The notes beneath the pieces are model-generated. The model worked only from the letters and a program-made list of their open reading frames with translations, was not told where the DNA came from and ran no database searches. From the NCBI GenBank assembly GCA_030728245.1, contig JANQZX010000005.1, forward strand, positions 8,853 to 50,916: a stretch of DNA of 42,064 nt. Direction: 5' to 3'. The position numbers and the translations under genes were made by a program. The stretch comes from Saprospiraceae bacterium (GTDB taxonomy: Bacteria; Bacteroidota; Bacteroidia; Chitinophagales; Saprospiraceae). Shown here in pieces: positions 30,437 to 41,902 of the stretch (position 1 is its first letter; each line of letters begins with the position of its first letter).

Positions 30437-32179
30437 ATGACCTTTCAAATTAAAGAAACGCCAGAAATTTTCGATGTAGTTATTGTTGGTTCTGGAGCCG
30501 GCGGTGGCATGGCAGCTTATACCTTAACCAAGGCAGGCGCAAAAGTTTGCTTATTGGAAGCTGGAAGTTATTACGATCCTGCTGATCCTCAATATATTAC
30601 CCAAATGAAAAATCCTTGGGAATCTCCTCGTCGCGGTGCTTCAAGTACCAGACCTTTTGGAGATTTTGATGCAGCTTACGGAGGTTGGCAAATCGAAGGA
30701 GAGCCTTACTCAGCGGTAAAAGGTACCGAATTTCATTGGTTCAGATCCAGAATGTTAGGGGGACGAACTAATCACTGGGGTAGAATTTCTCTTCGCTTCG
30801 GTCCAAATGATTTCAAAAGAGGGTCTTTAACTGGTATTGGAGATGACTGGCCTATCGGATATGACGATTTGAAGCCTTTTTATGACAAAACAGATAAACT
30901 AATTGGTATTTTTGGTTCTGTCGAAAATATATACAATGAACCGGACGGTATTTATCTTCCTCCACCTCCTATGAGATTGCATGAGCATTTTATAAAGAAA
31001 GCAGGAACGAATTTAAAAATTCCTGTTATTCCATCCAGACTTTCTATTTTAACCAGACCGATAAATAACGAAAGAGGCTCCTGTTTCTATTGCAGCCAAT
31101 GTAGCAGAGGTTGTAATAAATATGCAGACTTTTCTTCTTCTTCTGTATTGGTTATTCCTGCCATGAAAACAGGAAACTTAACCCTTATCAATCATGCAAT
31201 GGTTCGTGAGGTACTTACTGACCAGGCGACAGGTTTGGCAACTGGGGTTTCCTATGTTGATACTAAAACCATGGCTGAAGTCTCTGTTCGTGCAAAACGA
31301 GTGGTTTTAGGTGCTTCTGCCTGTGAATCTGCCCGTTTACTATTGAATTCTAAATCTGCGCGTTTCCCTCAGGGATTAGCCAATACAAGTGGGGTAATCG
31401 GTAAATATCTAAATGATTCTACGGGAGCCAGCCGAAGTGCTTTTGTTCCTTCTCTGATGAACCGGGATCGTTACAATGAAGACGGAGTTGGCGGAAGTCA
31501 TATCTATTCTCCATGGTGGCTGGATAATAATAAATTAGATTTTGCCAGAGGATATCATATCGAATATGGTGGTGGAATGGGTATGCCAGGATACGGTTTT
31601 GGTATGGGTATGCAAAATAGTAATGGAAAATATCCTTATCCAAATGGAGAAAAGTTACCCGCTGGTGGCTATGGTTCCAGATTAAGAGAAGATGTGAATC
31701 GCTTTTATGGTGCTCATATTGGTATGGCGGGTCGTGGTGAACCAATTCCTTTAGAAACCAATTACTGCGAAATCGATCCAGGCAAAGTGGATAAATATGG
31801 TATTCCAACGCTACGATTCCATTACAAATGGTCTGATCATGAAATAAAGCAGGCTAAACACATGCAGGACACTTTTGAGGAACTTATCATCGAAATGGGC
31901 GGTATTCCGTTAGGTAATAAACCTGGAGCAGATACAAATTACGGTTTAGAGGCACCTGGAAAAATTATACATGAAATTGGTACTGTTCGTATGGGCGATA
32001 ATCCAAATCGTTCTGCATTGAATAAATATCAGCAGGCACATGATGTTAAAAATTTGTTCGTTGTTGATGCAGGTCCATTTGTTTCTCAGGGTGATAAAAA
32101 CGTAACCTGGACTATCTTAGCGTCCTCTATGCGTACTTCTGAATACATCATTGATCAAGTTAAAGCTAATAAAATCTAA
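30437..32179 (+). CDS. GMC-family FAD-dependent dehydrogenase with a four-cysteine motif
   Basis: This 580-residue enzyme oxidises an alcohol or sugar at FAD and probably passes electrons to the membrane chain. The FAD fold is at the N-terminus (DVVIVGSGAGGGMAAYTL, about residues 13-30, then CLLEAGS), with GGRTNHWGRISLRFGPNDF after it. The C-terminus has VVDAGPFVSQGDKNVTWTI, the region of the GMC active site. A cluster C216-C219-C222-C226 (CFYCSQCSRGC) has ferredoxin-type spacing and could hold an Fe-S cluster, as in bacterial FAD-glucose dehydrogenases. There is no signal peptide; export with its Tat-bearing partner, encoded 5 bases downstream, is expected. The substrate is unknown. Confidence 0.88.
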   Translation: MTFQIKETPEIFDVVIVGSGAGGGMAAYTLTKAGAKVCLLEAGSYYDPADPQYITQMKNPWESPRRGASSTRPFGDFDAAYGGWQIEGEPYSAVKGTEFHWFRSRMLGGRTNHWGRISLRFGPNDFKRGSLTGIGDDWPIGYDDLKPFYDKTDKLIGIFGSVENIYNEPDGIYLPPPPMRLHEHFIKKAGTNLKIPVIPSRLSILTRPINNERGSCFYCSQCSRGCNKYADFSSSSVLVIPAMKTGNLTLINHAMVREVLTDQATGLATGVSYVDTKTMAEVSVRAKRVVLGASACESARLLLNSKSARFPQGLANTSGVIGKYLNDSTGASRSAFVPSLMNRDRYNEDGVGGSHIYSPWWLDNNKLDFARGYHIEYGGGMGMPGYGFGMGMQNSNGKYPYPNGEKLPAGGYGSRLREDVNRFYGAHIGMAGRGEPIPLETNYCEIDPGKVDKYGIPTLRFHYKWSDHEIKQAKHMQDTFEELIIEMGGIPLGNKPGADTNYGLEAPGKIIHEIGTVRMGDNPNRSALNKYQQAHDVKNLFVVDAGPFVSQGDKNVTWTILASSMRTSEYIIDQVKANKI

Positions 32180-32184
32180 TTGCC

Positions 32185-32799
32185 ATGAAACGCAGAGATC
32201 TTATAAAAAATATAACGCTTACCTCGGTAGGGCTTGCTACTGCTCAGGTTTTACCCGCTCAAACAGAAAATGTGGCTGCCGGTAAGCCTAAAAAGCAGAA
32301 ATCTAATTATGGTAGAACACCCGATGAGATAAAAAGAGACGAGAAGCTTGCTTCAGAAACGTTTTTTACCCCAGGTGAAATGGCTGTTATTACGCGTTTA
32401 TGTGATATTATCCTTCCAGCTGAAGGATCTTCGCCTTCTGCCGTGCAAGTGGGCGTTCCTGCTTTCATTGAATTTATCGCTAAGGACATGCCTTATCAGC
32501 AAGTTCCGCTCAGAGGTGGTATCATGTGGTTAGAAAATTACTCGCGCAAGTTATTTGGAAAATCTTTTGTTGCTATTACCCCAGCGAATCAGATTACCAT
32601 CGTTGATGCTATCGCTTATCCTGAATTGGCCACTCCCGCTGTTTCTGCAGGAGTAGCTTTCTTTAATCTAATGAGAGATTTGACATTAACAGGTTTTTAC
32701 ACCACAGAGGCCGGCTTTGAAGACCTTGGTTATGTAGGTAACAGACCCAATAACTGGGAAGGTCCACCAGCTGAAGTACTAAAGAAATTTAATTTTTAA
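32185..32799 (+). CDS. Gluconate 2-dehydrogenase subunit 3 family protein with Tat signal
   Basis: This 204-residue small subunit belongs with the GMC dehydrogenase before it. The N-terminus MKRRDLIKNITLTSVGLA contains a twin-arginine motif and hydrophobic stretch, so it probably carries the folded FAD subunit across the membrane. The family core is visible: FFTPGEMAVITRLCDIILP, VGVPAFIEFIA, FGKSFVAITPANQITIVDAI, FFNLMRDLTLTGFYTTEAGFEDLGYVG (given in part) and a final NNWEGPP. No cytochrome subunit follows, so the electron route is open. It ends 24 bases before the aldolase gene, so it probably shares the rhamnose transcript. Confidence 0.9.
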   Translation: MKRRDLIKNITLTSVGLATAQVLPAQTENVAAGKPKKQKSNYGRTPDEIKRDEKLASETFFTPGEMAVITRLCDIILPAEGSSPSAVQVGVPAFIEFIAKDMPYQQVPLRGGIMWLENYSRKLFGKSFVAITPANQITIVDAIAYPELATPAVSAGVAFFNLMRDLTLTGFYTTEAGFEDLGYVGNRPNNWEGPPAEVLKKFNF

Positions 32800-32823: not shown

Positions 32824-34917
32824 ATGCGTTCTTTTGATCATGTTTTAAATTTATGGGATGATCGTAAAGAGGCATCTTATAACAATAACCAAGTAGATTT
32901 ATTCCTTTATCGGTCTAATTTACTTGGGGCAGATTTAAGGATTACTAATTTTGGAGGAGGAAATACCTCCTGTAAAACAATAGAATCTGATCCATTAAGT
33001 GGTGAATTAAAAGAAGTTATGTGGATAAAGGGTTCCGGTGGAGATATCGGAACCCTTACCCGAAAGGGTATCGCTGGCTTGTTTACCGACCGCCTGCATT
33101 CCTTAAAACAAATATATAAAGGGCTTCCCTTCGAGGATGAAATTGTTCCCTTATTGCAACATTGTCTCTACGACCTGAATAGTGCTGCACCGTCCATTGA
33201 TACACCACTGCATGGTCTTTTGCCTTTTCCTCATATAGATCACCTTCATCCGGATGCACTCATTGCTATTGCAGCAGCGAAAGACGGTGAAGCTATTATG
33301 AAACAAATATGGGGTAATTCAATAGCCTGGATTCCCTGGCAAAGACCTGGTTTTGATCTTGGATTACAACTTGAAAAGTGCTATGAAGAAAATCCAGGTA
33401 TTAAAGGCATTATCCTGGGCAGTCATGGTCTATTTACCTGGGGAAATACCTCAAAGGAATGTTATTTCAATAGTCTGACAGTCATTGAGGAGGCTTCCAT
33501 TTTTCTTGCAAAGGCTCAAGAGAAAAAGGGCTCTATTTTCGGAGGATTAAAAATTGAGAGTCCACCTGCGCCTTATAGATTAAGTCAGGCGGCTCAATTA
33601 ATGCCAATATTGCGTGGTCTTTGCTCTGAAAAAAATCAAATGATAGGTCATTTTTCAGATGATTCTGCCGTGTTGGCTTTTATAAACAGTCATGATTTGC
33701 AGCGACTTGCTCCTCTTGGCACTTCCTGCCCGGATCATTTTCTACGCACTAAAATAAAACCCCTGGTTTTATCTCTTGCTATTACTGAAGATTTATCAGA
33801 CAGTTCAGGCATAAGAGAAATTATTAAACCAGCTTTCGAGCAGTATAGAGCGGACTACGCTGAATATTATGAAGCCTGCAAAAAGGATGATAGTCCGGTT
33901 ATGCGAGATGCAAATCCGGTGGTAATTATATATCCAGGCATTGGTATGTTCACTTTTGCCAAGGATAAGCAAACTGCCAGAGTTGCAGCAGAATTTTATC
34001 AAAATGCCATTAACGTGATGCGTGGAGCGGAAGCAATTTCAAGCTACACGGCTCTTCCAAGGCAAGAGGCATTTAATATAGAATATTGGTTGTTAGAAGA
34101 GGCTAAACTACAACGTATGCCTGCTGAAAAACCACTTTCCCGCCGTATTGCCCTTATTACAGGGGGTGGCGGAGGTATTGGAGGCGCTATTGCTAAGAAA
34201 CTGGCTGCTGAAGGAGCTCACATTGTTATCACTGACCTGTCGGAAGAAAGATTAAAGGAGGGTATTCAATCCTACAACAAGGATGTCGCCAGGTACTTTT
34301 CAGCAGATATAACCCAGGAAAAAGATCTGTTGAAATTAATTGATTTTACTTGTTTGCAATTCGGTGGGGTAGATATCATTGTTCATAGTGCAGGTCTTGC
34401 CATATCGAAATCTTTGACCGATACTTTGGAATCTGACTGGGATATTTTACAAAATGTATTGGTCAAAGCGCAGTTTCAACTTTTCAAGTTGGGCGTTAAT
34501 CTTATGAAAAAGCAACAATTTGGTGGAAATCTGGTGACCATTGCCAGTAAAAATGGATTAGTTTCAGGTCCAAATAATGTAGCTTATGGAACAGCAAAAG
34601 CGGCGCAACAACACATGACCCGATTACTCGCCGCCGAATTAGCGAAAGAAAATATAAGAGTAAATACCGTCAATCCTGATGGAGTTATCGTTGGAAGCAA
34701 AATATGGGAAGGTGATTGGGCAGAAGGAAGAGCAAAAGCTTACGGCATATCAGTGTCTGACTTACCGGCACACTATGCCAAAAGGAATCTCTTGAATCAA
34801 ATTATTTTACCAGAGGACATTGCCAACGGTGTTTTTGCCCTTTTATCAGTGCTCAATAAATCGACAGGACTTACCATTAATGTTGACGGAGGCATACCTG
34901 AAGCATTTGTTCGTTAA
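32824..34917 (+). CDS. rhaD: Bifunctional rhamnulose-1-phosphate aldolase/lactaldehyde dehydrogenase (class II aldolase-SDR fusion)
   Basis: The N-terminal ~400 residues are a class II zinc aldolase: NFGGGNTSCK, WIKGSGGDIGTLTRKG, the zinc-site histidines in DTPLHGLLPFPHIDHLHPDA and GSHGLFTWG. The C-terminal ~260 residues are a short-chain dehydrogenase: LITGGGGGIGGAIAKKLAAEG, the catalytic Ser in TIASKNG, YGTAK for the Tyr/Lys pair, and NVDGG at the end. Fusions of this type (TIGR02632) split rhamnulose-1-phosphate into DHAP and L-lactaldehyde and oxidise the aldehyde to L-lactate. Length 697 residues is typical. Neighbours encode the isomerase and kinase for the two preceding steps. Confidence 0.94.
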   Translation: MRSFDHVLNLWDDRKEASYNNNQVDLFLYRSNLLGADLRITNFGGGNTSCKTIESDPLSGELKEVMWIKGSGGDIGTLTRKGIAGLFTDRLHSLKQIYKGLPFEDEIVPLLQHCLYDLNSAAPSIDTPLHGLLPFPHIDHLHPDALIAIAAAKDGEAIMKQIWGNSIAWIPWQRPGFDLGLQLEKCYEENPGIKGIILGSHGLFTWGNTSKECYFNSLTVIEEASIFLAKAQEKKGSIFGGLKIESPPAPYRLSQAAQLMPILRGLCSEKNQMIGHFSDDSAVLAFINSHDLQRLAPLGTSCPDHFLRTKIKPLVLSLAITEDLSDSSGIREIIKPAFEQYRADYAEYYEACKKDDSPVMRDANPVVIIYPGIGMFTFAKDKQTARVAAEFYQNAINVMRGAEAISSYTALPRQEAFNIEYWLLEEAKLQRMPAEKPLSRRIALITGGGGGIGGAIAKKLAAEGAHIVITDLSEERLKEGIQSYNKDVARYFSADITQEKDLLKLIDFTCLQFGGVDIIVHSAGLAISKSLTDTLESDWDILQNVLVKAQFQLFKLGVNLMKKQQFGGNLVTIASKNGLVSGPNNVAYGTAKAAQQHMTRLLAAELAKENIRVNTVNPDGVIVGSKIWEGDWAEGRAKAYGISVSDLPAHYAKRNLLNQIILPEDIANGVFALLSVLNKSTGLTINVDGGIPEAFVR

Positions 34918-34957: not shown

Positions 34958-36241
34958 ATGCGAATAGATTCATTGCATATTTCAAGACATAATGATTTGT
35001 TTTTGGAAAAACATAGCCAATCATTTCATTTTCTCAAAAGAGAACTTTCCGATAAAGGTGTTGATGTTGAGTCTATTATAACCAAAATACAACAATTCCA
35101 AGTAGCAATTCCTAGTTGGGCGCTTGGTGCAGGGGGTACCCGATTTGGCAGATTTTCTATCGGTGGTGAACCTGGAGATCTCTTTCAGAAAATATCCGAC
35201 ATTAGTATCATCAACGATTTAACGGGGGCTGCTGGCGCCGTTTCATTACATATCCCCTGGGATATTCCGGAAAATGTGTCAACATTAACTCGTTACGCGA
35301 GTGAATGCGGTATAACTTTCGATGCCGTAAATTCGAATACCTTCCAAGATCAACCAGATCAAGCCCTTAGCTATAAATATGGTTCTCTCTGTCATACAGA
35401 TAGAAAAGTAAGAGAACAGGCAATACAACACAATATAGAGGTCATTCATTATGGTGAAGCATTGGGTTCAAAAAGTATAACCGTATGGTTATCTGACGGA
35501 TCTACTTTTCCAGGTCAAACTAATTTTAGACAAGCTCTGTCGAGAACTAAAGAATCTTTACAAGAAATATACAGACATTTACCCGCCGATTGGCAAATGT
35601 TTATTGAGTATAAACCCTACGAACCTCAGTTTTACAGCACCGTAATTCAAGATTGGGGAACCTCCCATTTATTGGCTTCCGCTTGTGGACCTCAGGCTTT
35701 TAGCTTAGTCGATTTGGGTCATCATTTACCAAATACCAATATTGAACAAATTGTTGCGACCTTGTTGTCTTTGGGGAAATTAGGTGGATTTCATTTTAAT
35801 GACAGTAAATATGGAGATGATGATCTCACGGTTGGCAGCATAAAACCTTACCAGTTATATTTGATTTTTTTAGAATTAGTCAGTGGCCTTGCTGATCCAA
35901 CGGTGATAAATCCCCCCATTTCATACATGATCGATGCGAGCCATAATGTAAAAGATCCACTGGAAGATCTTATGCAAAGTGTAGAGGCCATTCTCCTTTG
36001 CTATACACAGGCATTATTGGTGGATTTTAATAAACTAAATGAGCTGAGAGATAAAAACGAAGTGGTTTTAGCTCAGGAACTGATACAAGATGCCTATAGA
36101 ACAGATGTGAGACCACTACTTAGAGAGGCCAGATTACGAAAAAAAGCGGCATTTTCTCCAATTCAATGCTACAGAGATAATGAAATAAGGAGTCAGCTCA
36201 TCAGAGAAAGAGGAATTACCAATAAAGCAAAAGGATTGTAA
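34958..36241 (+). CDS. rhaI: L-rhamnose isomerase (RhaI type, TIM barrel)
   Basis: This enzyme converts L-rhamnose to L-rhamnulose. The 427-residue protein fits the TIGR02635 group (Gram-positive/Pseudomonas RhaI type) rather than E. coli RhaA. Visible are GAGGTRFGRFSIGGEPGDLFQKI (in part), SLHIPWDIPEN, LSDGSTFPGQTNF, and metal-site segments FIEYKPYEPQFYSTVIQDWG, VDLGHHLPNTNIEQIVATLL and GGFHFNDSKYGDDDL. It follows the aldolase fusion after 40 bases, and its stop codon touches the start of the kinase gene. Confidence 0.93.
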   Translation: MRIDSLHISRHNDLFLEKHSQSFHFLKRELSDKGVDVESIITKIQQFQVAIPSWALGAGGTRFGRFSIGGEPGDLFQKISDISIINDLTGAAGAVSLHIPWDIPENVSTLTRYASECGITFDAVNSNTFQDQPDQALSYKYGSLCHTDRKVREQAIQHNIEVIHYGEALGSKSITVWLSDGSTFPGQTNFRQALSRTKESLQEIYRHLPADWQMFIEYKPYEPQFYSTVIQDWGTSHLLASACGPQAFSLVDLGHHLPNTNIEQIVATLLSLGKLGGFHFNDSKYGDDDLTVGSIKPYQLYLIFLELVSGLADPTVINPPISYMIDASHNVKDPLEDLMQSVEAILLCYTQALLVDFNKLNELRDKNEVVLAQELIQDAYRTDVRPLLREARLRKKAAFSPIQCYRDNEIRSQLIRERGITNKAKGL

Positions 36242-37549
36242 ATGATGTCCATCCTCATTTTTGATGTGGGTAAAACAAATAAAAAAGCCATTTTATATGA
36301 TTATTCATACAAAGAAATATGGCAAACGTCCACTGTTTTACCTGAAATAAGGGATGAAGATGGCTTTCCTTGCGACGACATTCATGCCATATTAGCATGG
36401 ATGAAAAACGTTTTGTCAAATCTTATCAGTGATAGAACTTATCAGATAACCCATCTGAATTTTTCTGCTTATGGAGCGAGTTTTGTTCATGTCGATGAGG
36501 CTGGGAATATTTTGACTCCACTTTACAATTATACAAAACCGATACCATCGGACATCAGAGCTTCATTTTATGAAAAATACGGGGATGAAAAGAAATTGGC
36601 TTTAGAAACCGCTTCGCCAAGTCTCGATTTTTTAAATTCCAGTTTACAATTATATTACATAAAATACCGGTATCCGTCTGTATTTGAGCGTATTAAATGG
36701 AGCCTGCATTTACCTCAATTTTTAAGTTATTATTTCACACAATGGCCGGTTTCAGAATTAACCAGTATTGGTTGCCACACGGCCTTATGGAATTTTTCAG
36801 AAAATGATTATCATACCTGGGTTTATGAAGAAGGGATAACAGAAAAATTTCCTCCCTTAACATCTACGGGTGCCTGTTCAGAAACAACCATTTCAGGAAA
36901 ATTACTAAATATTGGCGCAGGTATTCATGACAGCTCTGCTGCCTTGTACCCTTTTTCTTTATTATCGGATGAACCCTATTTACTTTTATCGACGGGAACC
37001 TGGAGTATTGTATTTAACCCCTATTCAACGCAACCTTTAACGGCCGAAGTTCTGGAAAGAGACTGTTTACTTTTCCTTCAACCCAATGGAAATCCTGTAA
37101 AAGCGGCCAGACTTTTTTTAGGCTATACCTATCAGCAAAAATTGGAAGAAATAGGTCATTATTTTAAATACGACCTTAAAAATGTGTCTAAAGAACCTTT
37201 TGATAATCTTCTTTTGGATACCATTTCAACATCTACACAAAGGTATTTTTCATTTCCTTTGCTAAATATGGAGGAAGTGCCAGCATCAGCAACCGATTTA
37301 TCCCATTTTACCACTTTTGAATCTGCCTATTACCAAATGGTTTGGGAATTAAGTACTTATCAAATTAAGGCAATAAAAATAGCCACTGAGGGAAATGAAT
37401 TTCATCGAATGTACATAGATGGAGGATTTTCAAAAAATAAAATATTCATTCACAGTTTAAAAATACAACTTCCTGCTACGGAAATAATTGTATCTGAATT
37501 TTCATCAGGGGCATCATTAGGTGCGGCCATGCAGGTAAAGGGACATTAA
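36242..37549 (+). CDS. rhaB: FGGY-family rhamnulokinase
   Basis: This kinase would phosphorylate L-rhamnulose at C1. The 435-residue protein has the FGGY fold: an ATPase domain 1 motif ILIFDVGKTNKKAILYDY at the N-terminus, the substrate-side region LSAYGASFVHVDEAGNILTPLYN (in part), then LLLSTGTWSIVFNPYS, and a final YIDGGFSKNKIFI plus EFSSGASLGAAMQ. Either of two adjacent ATGs (36242 or 36245) could start it; the first is directly after the isomerase stop. Its sequence is less typical of RhaB than the surrounding genes are of their families, so the substrate rests mainly on context. Confidence 0.88.
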   Translation: MMSILIFDVGKTNKKAILYDYSYKEIWQTSTVLPEIRDEDGFPCDDIHAILAWMKNVLSNLISDRTYQITHLNFSAYGASFVHVDEAGNILTPLYNYTKPIPSDIRASFYEKYGDEKKLALETASPSLDFLNSSLQLYYIKYRYPSVFERIKWSLHLPQFLSYYFTQWPVSELTSIGCHTALWNFSENDYHTWVYEEGITEKFPPLTSTGACSETTISGKLLNIGAGIHDSSAALYPFSLLSDEPYLLLSTGTWSIVFNPYSTQPLTAEVLERDCLLFLQPNGNPVKAARLFLGYTYQQKLEEIGHYFKYDLKNVSKEPFDNLLLDTISTSTQRYFSFPLLNMEEVPASATDLSHFTTFESAYYQMVWELSTYQIKAIKIATEGNEFHRMYIDGGFSKNKIFIHSLKIQLPATEIIVSEFSSGASLGAAMQVKGH

Positions 37550-37648: not shown

Positions 37649-38392
37649 TTGAAAGTAGGATTATTCATTCCCTGTTATATGGATCAATTTTATCCACAAG
37701 CCGCCATTGCAACCTACAAACTGTTGCTAAAACTAGGCTGTGATGTAGAATATCCTGAAGGACAAACCTGTTGTGGTCAACCTTTGGCCAATGCTGGAAA
37801 TGAGGCAGCATCGAGAGGAAGTTACCTTCATTTTGTAACTATGTTTGAAAAATATGATTATATCGTTGCCCCTTCAGGAAGTTGTGTTTATCATGTGCGA
37901 CACCATTTTGACACTTTGGATCAAACCGATGCCGTTAAAAAAGTACGTGCAAAGACCCTTGATTTAACAGAATTTTTACTTGACGTATTACAAATCAGTT
38001 CTTTACCCGCCAAATATCCTCATAAAGTAGGATTACATCAGAGTTGTCATGGACTACGAGGTTTACATTTAGCCACATCAAGTGAACTGGTGAACAAACC
38101 AGCTGCCTCCAAACTACATGAATTATTAAGCATGGTAGAAGGCCTGACATTGGTTGAATTGGATAGAAAAGACGAATGTTGTGGATTTGGGGGAACATTT
38201 TCTGTAAAAGAGCCTGCTATTTCTGTAAAAATGGGTAAAGATCGAATTCGTGATCATTTTTCAAAAGGGGCAGAGGTCATAACTGCCGGAGATATGAGTT
38301 GCCTCATGCATTTAGAGGGCATAATATCGAGGCAGAACATACCTATCAAAGTAATACATATTGCAGAAATTCTAAATGCTGACGAAATATGA
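37649..38392 (+). CDS. lutA: L-lactate utilisation protein LutA (CCG-domain Fe-S oxidoreductase subunit), TTG start
   Basis: LutA is one of three subunits of the LutABC complex, which oxidises L-lactate to pyruvate. The 247-residue protein has the two cysteine-rich CCG domains: GQTCCGQPLANAGNEA (from about residue 43) and DECCGFGGTFSVKEPAIS (from about 181), plus HQSCHGLRGLH between them. The start is TTG (MKVGLFIPCYMDQFYPQ), which matches the conserved family N-terminus; no in-frame ATG lies nearby upstream. A 99-base gap separates it from the kinase gene. Its stop overlaps the lutB start (ATGA), so the two are coupled. Confidence 0.93.
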   Translation: MKVGLFIPCYMDQFYPQAAIATYKLLLKLGCDVEYPEGQTCCGQPLANAGNEAASRGSYLHFVTMFEKYDYIVAPSGSCVYHVRHHFDTLDQTDAVKKVRAKTLDLTEFLLDVLQISSLPAKYPHKVGLHQSCHGLRGLHLATSSELVNKPAASKLHELLSMVEGLTLVELDRKDECCGFGGTFSVKEPAISVKMGKDRIRDHFSKGAEVITAGDMSCLMHLEGIISRQNIPIKVIHIAEILNADEI

Positions 38393-39759
38393 CGCCACAT
38401 GCTCAAAAAGCGGCTATTTTTAATAAAGACGAAGTGCGAACTGACTGGCACGATGCCTCCTTATGGATGGTCAGGAAGAAGCGGGACTTTGCTGTTTCCG
38501 AGATACCCGAATGGGAATTTCTCAGAGAATTTGCTTCCGATATAAAAATGCACACCCTGTCAAAACTCGATGATTACCTGGAATTATTTGAAAAAGCGGC
38601 GATTCAAAATGGTGCCACAGTACATTGGGCTGAAGATGCAAAGGAGCATAATGACATCGTTTTAACTATTTTAAATAAGCACCAGGCGAAAAAAATGGTC
38701 AAGAGCAAATCTATGCTCACTGAGGAATGTCACCTCAATGAATTTTTAGAACGTCATAACATTGAGGTTATCGATTCCGACCTAGGCGAAAGAATCATTC
38801 AAATGTTGAACGAACCACCCAGCCATATAGTAATGCCCGCTATACATTTGAAGAAAGAAGAAATTGGAGAACTATTTCATAGAGAGTTACATACAGAAAA
38901 GGGAGCCACGGATCCGCAATATCTTACCGAAGCGGCACGGCATCATTTAAGGGAAAAATTTCATACGGCACAAGTTGCATTAACCGGCGTTAATTTTGGT
39001 ATAGCTGAAACGGGAGAAGTGGTTGTTTGTACCAATGAGGGGAATGCAGATATGGGCGTTCATTTAACACCTGTACAAATTCATAGTATGGGTATCGAAA
39101 AACTGATACCCAGGAGAAGCGACCTCGCTGTTTTTACCCGTTTATTGGCTAGAAGTGCTACTGGACAACCCGTAACAGTTTTCACCTCCCACCATAGAAA
39201 TCCAAAACCTGCGGGTGAAATGCATATTATTTTAGTGGATAATGGAAGGACGGAACAATTAGGTAAACCTGATTTCCGAAGTTCCCTGAAGTGCATTCGT
39301 TGTGGAGCTTGTATGAACACCTGCCCCATTTACAGAAGAAGTGGCGGGCATAGTTATGAGACCACTATTCCAGGACCGATTGGTTCGATATTAACACCTG
39401 GTATAGATTTAAAAAAACACGGACAATTACCCTTTGCTTCCACTCTTTGTGGTTCATGCACCGATGTTTGCCCGGTGAAAATAGATATTCATACGCAACT
39501 TTATAAATGGCGACAGATTGTCAGCGAAGCAGGTTTGCCTGAAGCGGGTAATAAAACCATGATGAGCATAATGGGAAATGGCTTGGCCTCTCCCACTTTT
39601 TTCCATCGTTTGGGTAATATCGGAAGGAAACTATTGCGTCTTTTTCCAGGAAAAGAAAGATTTCTCTCCTTCACAGTCTGGACAAAAGACAGAGATTTAC
39701 CCAAAGCCCCCGTCGAATCATTTAGGGAATGGTATGCAAAACAAGCTAAGGATGCCTAG
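38389..39759 (+). CDS. lutB: L-lactate utilisation protein LutB (Fe-S subunit)
   Basis: LutB is the large Fe-S subunit of the lactate-oxidising LutABC complex. The 456-residue protein has an N-terminal LUD domain (about residues 60-290; LTGVNFGIAETGEVVVCTNEGN is characteristic, given here in part). Two [4Fe-4S] motifs follow: CIRCGACMNTCPIYR (from about 302) and LCGSCTDVCPVKIDIH (from about 353). A C-terminal domain ends in FREWYAKQAK. It overlaps lutA by four bases and lutC by eight. Confidence 0.95.
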   Translation: MTPHAQKAAIFNKDEVRTDWHDASLWMVRKKRDFAVSEIPEWEFLREFASDIKMHTLSKLDDYLELFEKAAIQNGATVHWAEDAKEHNDIVLTILNKHQAKKMVKSKSMLTEECHLNEFLERHNIEVIDSDLGERIIQMLNEPPSHIVMPAIHLKKEEIGELFHRELHTEKGATDPQYLTEAARHHLREKFHTAQVALTGVNFGIAETGEVVVCTNEGNADMGVHLTPVQIHSMGIEKLIPRRSDLAVFTRLLARSATGQPVTVFTSHHRNPKPAGEMHIILVDNGRTEQLGKPDFRSSLKCIRCGACMNTCPIYRRSGGHSYETTIPGPIGSILTPGIDLKKHGQLPFASTLCGSCTDVCPVKIDIHTQLYKWRQIVSEAGLPEAGNKTMMSIMGNGLASPTFFHRLGNIGRKLLRLFPGKERFLSFTVWTKDRDLPKAPVESFREWYAKQAKDA

Positions 39760-40336
39760 TAAAGAAACTATTTTAACTAAAATCAAGGCCAATAGACCAA
39801 ATCTTTGGCCCCTACCCGATGTTCCTATTTTCGAAACATTGGCAACCGACAAGAAGAAATTGTTTATACAAATATTGGAAAGAGGAGGAAGTAAAGTACA
39901 TTGTGTTGACGATAGTACACAAATACATCAGGTAATAACCACCCATTTTCCCGAAAATAAAAGGATGGTCTCTGCCCTACCCTTTTTAGAGGGAATAGAG
40001 GGAATTACCACCCTTCATCCCGATTTTTATGAAGGAACTGAAGTAGCCATTATTGAAGGACTTATTGGCGTAGCTGAAAATGGGGCGCTTTGGGTTACTG
40101 AAAATGAGCTGGGAGATGTGCGCGTTTTACCTTTTATTGCACAACATTTAGTCATGGTCATTAGTGAAAAAAATATTGTTGGCACCATGCATGAAGCTTA
40201 TAAAAAATTAGGCTTACCCACTACAGAGGGCTTTGGTGTATTCATCGCCGGTCCCTCCAAAACCGCTGACATAGAACAATCCTTAGTTATTGGGGCTCAG
40301 GGAGCTCGTAGTTTATTGGTCATCCTCACCCCTTAA
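39752..40336 (+). CDS. lutC: L-lactate utilisation protein LutC (LUD domain)
   Basis: LutC is the third subunit of LutABC. The 194-residue protein is a single LUD domain: VAIIEGLIGVAENGALWVTE, then LPFIAQHLVMVISEKNIV and FGVFIAGPSKTADIEQSLVIGAQGARSL (in part) with the conserved GP-S-TADIE motif. I chose ATG 39752 (MPSKETILTKIKANRP), which overlaps the lutB stop by eight bases and matches the short N-terminus of the family. An ATG at 39734 is possible. The longer open frame upstream lies inside lutB and is not coding. Confidence 0.93.
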   Translation: MPSKETILTKIKANRPNLWPLPDVPIFETLATDKKKLFIQILERGGSKVHCVDDSTQIHQVITTHFPENKRMVSALPFLEGIEGITTLHPDFYEGTEVAIIEGLIGVAENGALWVTENELGDVRVLPFIAQHLVMVISEKNIVGTMHEAYKKLGLPTTEGFGVFIAGPSKTADIEQSLVIGAQGARSLLVILTP

Positions 40337-40346
40337 TCGATTCATC

Positions 40347-41741
40347 ATGCTTTTAGAAAAACTTAGCGCCCACCTCGAAGAAGTAAAAGAATACGAAAGA
40401 GAACCTGTTCCGGCTTCCCGCTGGCGAGGATTTAAAAGTTTTTTAGGAATGTATGCCGGTGAACACACTGCGGGAACAGAATTTGTCATCGGCCCCCTGT
40501 TTGTTGCACATGGCGCGGGGGCTATGGACCTTATATTAGGTTTACTCCTTGGTAATTTTTTAGCCGTACTTTCATGGGCGTTTATCTGCGCGCCCATTGC
40601 CGTAAGAGAAAGAGTAACGTTATATTTTCTGCTCGAAAAAATATGTGGTAAACATCTTACCAATGCTTACAATCTGGTCAATGCCCTCATGTTCTGCTTT
40701 TTAGCAGGTTCCATGATAGCCGTTTCAGCCACTGCTATAGGCATTCCATTTAATATACCGCTGGCAAAATTAACCGATTGGCTACCTTCGGGCCTACCCT
40801 GGATAATTATCGTGGTCCTGGTGGGAACCGTTACTACTTTTGTAGCTACTTTGGGCTATGATAAGGTAGAAAAGTTTGCAAGCATTGCTGCACCCTGGAT
40901 GATTTTAGTATTTTTAGCTTCAGCTATTGCAGTTTTACCCGAATTGGGCGTAAAAAACTTGGGCGATTTTTTTCAGGTTGCGCAAGATAAAATATGGACG
41001 GGAAAGCCACTTGCCGGACAAAGTAAATTCACCTTTTGGCATATCTTATTTTTTGCCTGGTTCTGTAATATGGCTATGCACATAGGAATGGCTGATTTGT
41101 CCATACTTAGGTATGCGAAAAAATGGACTGCTGGATTTGCTTCAGCAGGAGGAATGTACGTCGGACACTATGTTGCCTGGTTAGCTTCAGGTATTTTATA
41201 TGCACTTTTTCTACAACAAAGCAATGAAAATTTAGAATTTGCACCAGGTCCTGTTGCCTATTCCGCCGTTGGAATTACTGGGGCATTATGTGTAATCATT
41301 GCGGGTTGGACAACGGCTAATCCCACCATTTATCGGGCAGGACTCGCTTTACAAGCTATCATGCCCAAAGCAAAAACCTGGAAAATTACTTTAATTGTAG
41401 GCTCTATAACCACTTTAGCCGCTTGTTTTCCTGCTTTGGTCATGCAATTACTCGATTTTGTGGCCCTTTATGGTTTGGTTCTCATGCCCATGGGAGCCAT
41501 TATTTTTATCGACTACTGGCTTTTTCCTCGTATAGGATTACAATCTAATCTGGCGGCAGTGAAAAATCTTACCTATAATGTTGCTGCGTTAATCACCTGG
41601 CTCGGAAGTTTGTTAGCCTGCTATTTAATTGCCAAAACGACTGGATTGGAAATATTTTTCCTAGGACTTCCAGGCTGGTTTCTAGCTGCCCTGATTTATA
41701 TTATTTCTTCTTATGCGTATCAAAAAAAATGGTCAAAATGA
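40347..41741 (+). CDS. NCS1/CodB-like permease of a rhamnose-lactate cluster
   Basis: This 464-residue membrane protein has about twelve transmembrane helices and belongs to the purine-cytosine permease (NCS1) superfamily by its layout: SFLGMYAGEHTAGTEFVIGP in helix 1, GLLLGNFLAVLSWAFICAPI in helix 2, ATLGYDKVEKFASIAAPW in helix 5 and AGWTTANPTIYRAGLALQA in helix 8. The start MLLEKLSAHLEEVKEYEREP follows the lutC stop by 10 bases; an earlier in-frame start would overlap lutC. It is the only transporter in the cluster, so uptake of rhamnose, lactate or a related compound is more likely than nucleobase uptake (inference). The 54-residue gene after it overlaps by four bases. Confidence 0.88.
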   Translation: MLLEKLSAHLEEVKEYEREPVPASRWRGFKSFLGMYAGEHTAGTEFVIGPLFVAHGAGAMDLILGLLLGNFLAVLSWAFICAPIAVRERVTLYFLLEKICGKHLTNAYNLVNALMFCFLAGSMIAVSATAIGIPFNIPLAKLTDWLPSGLPWIIIVVLVGTVTTFVATLGYDKVEKFASIAAPWMILVFLASAIAVLPELGVKNLGDFFQVAQDKIWTGKPLAGQSKFTFWHILFFAWFCNMAMHIGMADLSILRYAKKWTAGFASAGGMYVGHYVAWLASGILYALFLQQSNENLEFAPGPVAYSAVGITGALCVIIAGWTTANPTIYRAGLALQAIMPKAKTWKITLIVGSITTLAACFPALVMQLLDFVALYGLVLMPMGAIIFIDYWLFPRIGLQSNLAAVKNLTYNVAALITWLGSLLACYLIAKTTGLEIFFLGLPGWFLAALIYIISSYAYQKKWSK

Positions 41742-41902
41742 AGATATTACTAAAATTAGTATCGATTGTAGGACTTATTCTAACTCTTCTGCCTTCTATT
41801 GGGGTATTCTATGAGGTAATTAGTCAAGAGGAGAATAAGTATTTTATGCTTATTGGTACGCTACTTTGGTTTGGACCTAAGATTATTTTTAAGGCAAAAT
41901 AG
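41738..41902 (+). CDS. 54-residue two-helix membrane protein coupled to the permease gene
   Basis: The ATG overlaps the permease stop (ATGA), which suggests translational coupling. The protein has a first helix at about residues 5-24 (LVSIVGLILTLLPSIGVFYE), a short acidic loop (SQEENKYF) and a second helix (about 37-50; MLIGTLLWFGPKIIF), ending in KAK. I recall similar short proteins encoded next to transporters in Bacteroidota but know of no function. A small accessory subunit of the permease is possible (inference). Confidence 0.7.
   Translation: MKILLKLVSIVGLILTLLPSIGVFYEVISQEENKYFMLIGTLLWFGPKIIFKAK

Follow-up and report, generated by a model that had tools for sequence, protein, structure and literature searches.

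A probable L-rhamnose importer of Bacteroidota from a sister branch of the NCS1 carriers

In a rhamnose operon of a Saprospiraceae bacterium lies a gene for a membrane carrier, here called PERM, which is very probably the operon's inner-membrane importer of L-rhamnose, most likely coupled to Na+, in place of RhaT. The DNA we analysed, referred to throughout as the window, is a stretch of 42,064 nucleotides of contig JANQZX010000005.1. An initial annotation, made from the letters of the window, had proposed that PERM belongs to a subgroup of NCS1-like permeases that may be a previously undescribed rhamnose or lactate transporter. The rhamnose half of that proposal is now strongly supported; the lactate half is not supported. 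What we have computed is the operon itself, the co-occurrence of PERM with the isomerase RhaI, its exchange with RhaT, the fold of a model, the distant homology to NCS1 carriers and a pair of threonines shared with them. The substrate, the direction of transport and the choice of Na+ over H+ as coupling ion are what we infer.

PERM is a frame of 464 residues from its ATG and begins 10 bases after the lutC stop codon (40334-40336), just as the initial annotation had it (Table 1). Downstream, the ATG of the gene for a small protein, SMALL, which the initial annotation passes over, overlaps the PERM stop by four bases (ATGA). PERM is a real gene and not a chance open reading frame, and it finds a match at E <= 1e-3 in 36 of 395 genomes of the phylum (the window's own included), 35 of them at E <= 2e-98. 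Two other assemblies (loci L068 and L069) contain PERM, 97-98% identical, and as far as their sequence reaches the genes stand in the same order. The window ends where its contig of 50,916 bases ends, so the operon is seen only up to that point, and further genes of the operon may lie beyond it, downstream of SMALL. The earlier description of PERM as the only transporter of the cluster therefore holds within the sequence available and goes no further. RhaT is absent from the window's genome (PF06379 search of the genome), and the three matches to the sugar-porter family found there (PF00083; 363, 52 and 29 bits) are all on other contigs. At the other end of the cluster, the GMC oxidoreductase and the Gluconate_2-dh3 subunit (together 30437-32799) may provide a periplasmic sugar oxidation step.

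Table 1. Genes around PERM in the window, and carriers of the 40%-identical clade at three other loci
Feature	Coordinates	Strand	Remarks
GMC oxidoreductase	30437-32179	+	Directly upstream of the rhamnose genes
Gluconate_2-dh3 subunit	32185-32799	+	Directly upstream of the rhamnose genes
RhaEW, rhamnulose-1-phosphate aldolase/dehydrogenase fusion	32824..34917	+	TIGR02632, E 1.2e-269, above cut-off
RhaI, L-rhamnose isomerase	34958..36241	+	TIGR02629, E 6.1e-150, 499.7 bits, below the 646.8-bit cut-off
FGGY-family kinase, predicted rhamnulokinase	36242..37549	+	Best NCBIfam match TIGR02627, 43 bits, far below cut-off
LutA/LldE-type protein	37649..38392	+	Two cysteine-rich CCG stretches; TTG start as called
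LutB/LldF-type iron-sulfur protein, L-lactate oxidation	38389..39759	+	TIGR00273, E 1.4e-119, 399.8 bits, below the 444.8-bit cut-off
LutC (LUD domain)	39752..40336	+	Start codon uncertain, 39734 also possible
PERM carrier	40347..41741	+	Sister branch of NCS1; predicted L-rhamnose:cation (probably Na+) symporter
SMALL, 54 aa, two hydrophobic stretches	41738..41902	+	Proposed carrier partner subunit
40%-clade carrier, L064	9240-10952		C-terminal extension
40%-clade carrier, L065	8902-10617		C-terminal extension
40%-clade carrier, L066	9207-10925		C-terminal extension

Much of the case for rhamnose comes from the company PERM keeps across the 395 genomes. The 36 positive genomes comprise 33 with the main clade, two with only a clade 40% identical to it (G107 and G130) and one with a weak match (G312); these last three were left out of the count. 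RhaI, counted at E below 1e-60 with seven weak matches set aside, is present in all 33 main-clade genomes, compared with 67 of the full 395 (Fisher p 1e-29, a value that ignores shared ancestry). The RhaI match reaches at least 476 bits in 32 of the 33 and stands at 231 bits in G345, where it may be another isomerase.

The 67 RhaI genomes divide between two carriers: 31 have PERM only, 32 have RhaT only, two have both and two have neither. RhaT was counted here on strong matches only, which leaves out G178, G182, G313, G352 and G376. When these five weaker matches to the RhaT family (about 79-87 bits, which clears the Pfam cut-off) are admitted, G178, G352 and G376 shift to having both and the numbers become 28, 32, 5 and 2. 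Counted by genus on strong matches (42 genera), the division is 20, 18, 2 and 2 (p 1e-7), which eases the effect of shared ancestry only in part. Of the 34 genomes with both RhaT and RhaI, 29 have the two genes no more than 12 kb apart. Given this proximity and the near-exclusive exchange, PERM and RhaT fill the same slot, and lineages with PERM seem to use it instead of RhaT. The two share a genomic role and differ in family: RhaT is an L-rhamnose:H+ symporter of the DMT superfamily (PF06379), a model that PERM does not match at E 1e-3. The genomes with RhaI and neither carrier are G004 and G096, where a further rhamnose importer may exist. In three others (G064, G162 and G219) no rhamnose gene lies near PERM (loci L058, L032 and L041) and RhaI is on another contig, G162 carrying RhaT as well; in G179, RhaM sits beside PERM.

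The neighbourhoods of PERM tell of the same association. We compared 117 loci, of which 37 are places in the phylum genome set and 80 are named loci, the top 80 from a set of at least 500 relatives, which tilts the named loci towards the window protein. Setting aside one weak locus (L067, E 6e-4) leaves 116, and removing six duplicates leaves 110 distinct loci, 107 of the main clade and three of the 40%-identical clade. A first scan of neighbours preferred longer overlapping frames and left seven of the 117 loci (L067 among them) without their carrier frame, so the neighbour numbers come from a recount of the 116. A rhamnose gene (RhaI, RhaEW, RhaK, RhaA, RhaM, GH78 or GH106) is near PERM at 84 of the 107 main-clade loci, and at 59 of the 70 that have 7 kb or more of flanking sequence on both sides. 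With RhaI, RhaEW or RhaA as the sole criterion, the figures are 68 of 107 and 48 of 70, the remaining 16 of the 84 being linked by a kinase, mutarotase or rhamnosidase only. Gene by gene, RhaI occurs at 59 of the 107 loci, RhaK at 41, RhaEW at 39, RhaM at 20, the alpha-L-rhamnosidase families GH106 and GH78 at 19 and 12, and RhaA at eight. At the thresholds applied, the other 23 of the 107 lack any rhamnose gene; some of these are short contigs, and one (L072) was scored this way despite a cut piece of RhaEW at its edge. Eleven of the 70 well-flanked loci also have none, and some members of the PERM family may stand alone or carry another solute.

Judged by label, the set of named loci is drawn from Bacteroidota, Balneolales, Rhodothermales, KSB1, Calditrichaceae, Neomarinimicrobiota, Aminicenantes, Planctomycetes, Kiritimatiellae, Verrucomicrobia and single metagenome-assembled genomes (MAGs) otherwise labelled. 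Three PERM genes sit in MAGs labelled Thalassovita, Acidobacteria and Actinomycetota (L121, L123 and L143), through binning error or transfer. At 33 of the 117 loci (for example, L092:12982-14037), a neighbour of PERM is a GntR-type regulator that carries a periplasmic-binding-protein-like domain. This protein is a candidate rhamnose regulator and is not among the ten window proteins scanned.

Relatives in the 40%-identical clade keep different company. At all 14 distinct loci of this clade (L064-L066 and 11 from L197-L208, with L201 left out as a repeat of L064), a gene of the mannitol dehydrogenase family adjoins the carrier, and the tie to rhamnose thus does not hold for the wider family. 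For these dehydrogenases the nearest NCBIfam names, neither of which reaches its cut-off, are fructuronate reductase and D-arabinitol 4-dehydrogenase, and the simplest guess is that the clade holds candidate polyol carriers. Their C-terminal extension bears a weak resemblance to SMALL (HMM E 6e-4 to 4e-3 in the set of three; hhalign 34%).

If substrates can shift in this way, as the clade suggests, might PERM move not rhamnose but a compound related to it, such as rhamnosides, rhamnogalacturonan fragments or another 6-deoxy sugar that feeds the same enzymes? The GH78 and GH106 genes often found among its neighbours would suit such a substrate, and PMC3870299 describes oligosaccharide carriers in some genomes without a carrier for free rhamnose. 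We nonetheless hold this unlikely. PERM exchanges with a symporter of free rhamnose in the same genomic slot, and no rhamnosidase is among the ten window proteins scanned around it.

With L-rhamnose as the substrate of PERM, the operon gives a route from import to pyruvate. The sugar would enter through PERM by alternating access coupled to Na+, and RhaI, the FGGY kinase and RhaEW would convert it in turn to DHAP and L-lactate; LutABC would then finish the pathway by taking L-lactate to pyruvate. According to PMC3870299, L-lactate arises inside the cell from L-lactaldehyde through RhaEW, and lldEFG belongs to the rhamnose regulons of other groups. Lactate made within the cell needs no importer. 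A carrier of lactate (or of lactaldehyde or propanediol) serving the adjacent lutABC, inward or outward, would fit the 10-base spacing from lutC, the presence of lutA or lutB at 33 of the 107 main-clade loci and the absence of an LctP-type lactate permease from the window's genome. We judge it very improbable and have rejected it, since lutA and lutB are both missing from the stretch available at 53 of the 84 loci linked to rhamnose, and PERM is tied to RhaI and trades places with RhaT. The reverse arrangement, lut genes without rhamnose genes, occurs at two of the 107 loci, L075 and L070, the latter cut at its lut side.

What kind of protein is PERM? An AlphaFold2 model built from 33 sequences (pLDDT 89.2, pTM 0.87) has helices for about 12 membrane spans, of which the first and the sixth are broken. 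The best solved match to this model is CodB (7qoa; Z 38.7 over 394 residues, 2.8 A), with Mhp1 second (4d1a; Z 31.3) and carriers of the SSS family behind both (best Z 25.0, SiaT). As modelled, the fold is LeuT-type in its NCS1 form, a claim that rests on AlphaFold because sequence searches of the solved structures, with PERM alone or with its profile, gave no match. Profile comparison also reaches NCS1 (TC family 2.A.39): hhalign of 15 NCS1 against 33 PERM sequences gives 98.2% probability and E 3e-14 over 398 columns, a full-length match. The description of PERM as a twelve-helix CodB-like carrier is thus sound for fold and distant homology, and does not extend to the curated families. Against Pfam at E 1e-3 PERM has no match, whether to RhaT or to the MFS sugar-porter models (the kind of RhaY-type porters). 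TIGR00800, the NCBIfam nucleobase model, scores it at 30.9 bits against a cut-off of 353.1, and a PF02133 search of the window's genome found nothing.

The residues tell a similarly mixed story. According to PMC9379551, CodB binds Na+ through T278 and T279 and stacks its base on W108, and these residue numbers carry the same letters in E. coli CodB. T278 and T279 align with T322 and T323 on TM8 of PERM, which are invariant in 33 of 33 sequences, and the Na2 site residues on TM8 thus appear to be kept as a predicted site; Na+ would bind at this conserved Na2 site, between the TM1 break and the two threonines. CodB Arg216 and Tyr285 correspond in the profile alignment to PERM Arg255 and Tyr329. 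The TM3 tryptophan, present in all 15 NCS1 sequences aligned, has L119 as its counterpart in PERM (in an alignment of about 17% identity), with Leu in 30 of 33 sequences and Ile in the other three, which are the rows of the 40%-identical clade. At the TM6 break, where NCS1 carriers have a Phe or Trp, the alignment has a gap at CodB 202-204, and the predicted break in PERM holds the invariant N241 and H245. Together with E39, H40 and E45, these two set the PERM group apart from NCS1, and the five may form the sugar site. In a quick tree, to which we give little weight, a branch with 100% SH-aLRT sets off the NCS1 rows; this branch is very long and drew a warning of long-branch joining.

PERM is therefore a sister branch of NCS1 and not an ordinary member, for despite the CodB fold it lies below the curated NCS1 models, lacks the TM3 tryptophan and has invariants of its own. 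With CodB (7qoa) and Mhp1 (2jln, 4d1a) it has in common the fold, the full-length profile match and the TM8 Thr-Thr pair; it differs from them in its curated scores, in having Leu for Trp on TM3, in the sugar genes around it and in its small companion protein.

The initial annotation had counted neighbourhoods dominated by nucleobase genes as evidence against a rhamnose or lactate carrier, and a search for them with nine E. coli enzymes did not speak against the proposal. Eight (CodA, AllB, AllC, HyuA, SsnA, GuaD, XdhA and XdhD) have no match of at least 70 bits at the 107 loci. The ninth, AllD, has four (101-171 bits, at L070, L083, L087 and L091), which presumably reflect a general Ldh2-type dehydrogenase family, and three of these four loci also hold RhaM and GH106. 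That PERM is an importer of nucleobases, hydantoin or allantoin carried along in the operon, as its closest solved folds CodB and Mhp1 might suggest, is scarcely credible, and we have rejected it on this gene context and on the replacement of the base-stacking tryptophan.

The L-rhamnose importer we favour would probably not act alone. The SMALL profile finds a match no more than 2.7 kb downstream of PERM at 97 of the 107 main-clade loci, and within 400 bases at 86. Among the 11 more distant cases SMALL lies between RhaEW and RhaI in ten; in the eleventh (L120) the carrier frame is cut (186 residues) and the distance to SMALL is unreliable. Of the ten loci without SMALL downstream, six form a 51%-identical clade (L058-L063) that does without SMALL nearby, three (L049, L118 and L127) end soon after the carrier, and in the last (L140) SMALL is fused to the carrier's C terminus (E 3e-6). 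When 295 genomes of the class were screened for more fused carriers, none had the C-terminal extension seen in the 40%-identical clade; the family search did find carriers with it. From the linkage across many lineages and the one clear fusion we infer that SMALL is likely to be a partner subunit of PERM. By analogy only, the pair recalls SGLT2-MAP17, in which a sugar symporter of LeuT-type fold has a small membrane partner. SGLT2 belongs to a different family (SSS), SMALL differs in its two hydrophobic stretches, and the SGLT2-MAP17 entries score Z 19.4-21.2 against the PERM model.

There is a broader reading, on which we find ourselves evenly balanced. A LeuT-fold branch neighbouring NCS1 may have moved from nucleobases to sugars and polyols (L-rhamnose in one clade, mannitol or arabitol in another) as a two-part symporter with the two-helix protein SMALL, in Bacteroidota and several other phyla. 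SMALL would then be a MAP17-like subunit, separate in most genomes, fused in L140 and perhaps fused in the polyol clade too.

Our literature search found no paper that links NCS1 with rhamnose transport. One gene may already bear on the matter. Echvi_1617 of Echinicola vietnamensis is reportedly listed in GapMind as an L-rhamnose transporter, on the basis of the fitness of mutants, and may be an orthologue of PERM; the same search found no paper with this tag. All 11 Echinicola genomes searched have one copy of PERM, and two of the three that measure about 5.6 Mb have it at 1.85-1.86 Mb of contig 1, a position that fits the tag number 1617 and does not by itself prove identity with Echvi_1617.

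Plant and algal polysaccharides commonly contain the sugar rhamnose. For some genomes with rhamnose pathways, PMC3870299 reports that no candidate carrier was found. PERM has no Pfam family, and NCBIfam offers it only a sub-threshold nucleobase name. Naming PERM would fill the carrier gap in about half of the sampled RhaI genomes of the phylum (33 of 67). It suggests sugar transport by an NCS1-type fold and, together with SMALL, it raises a testable question about the small subunit.
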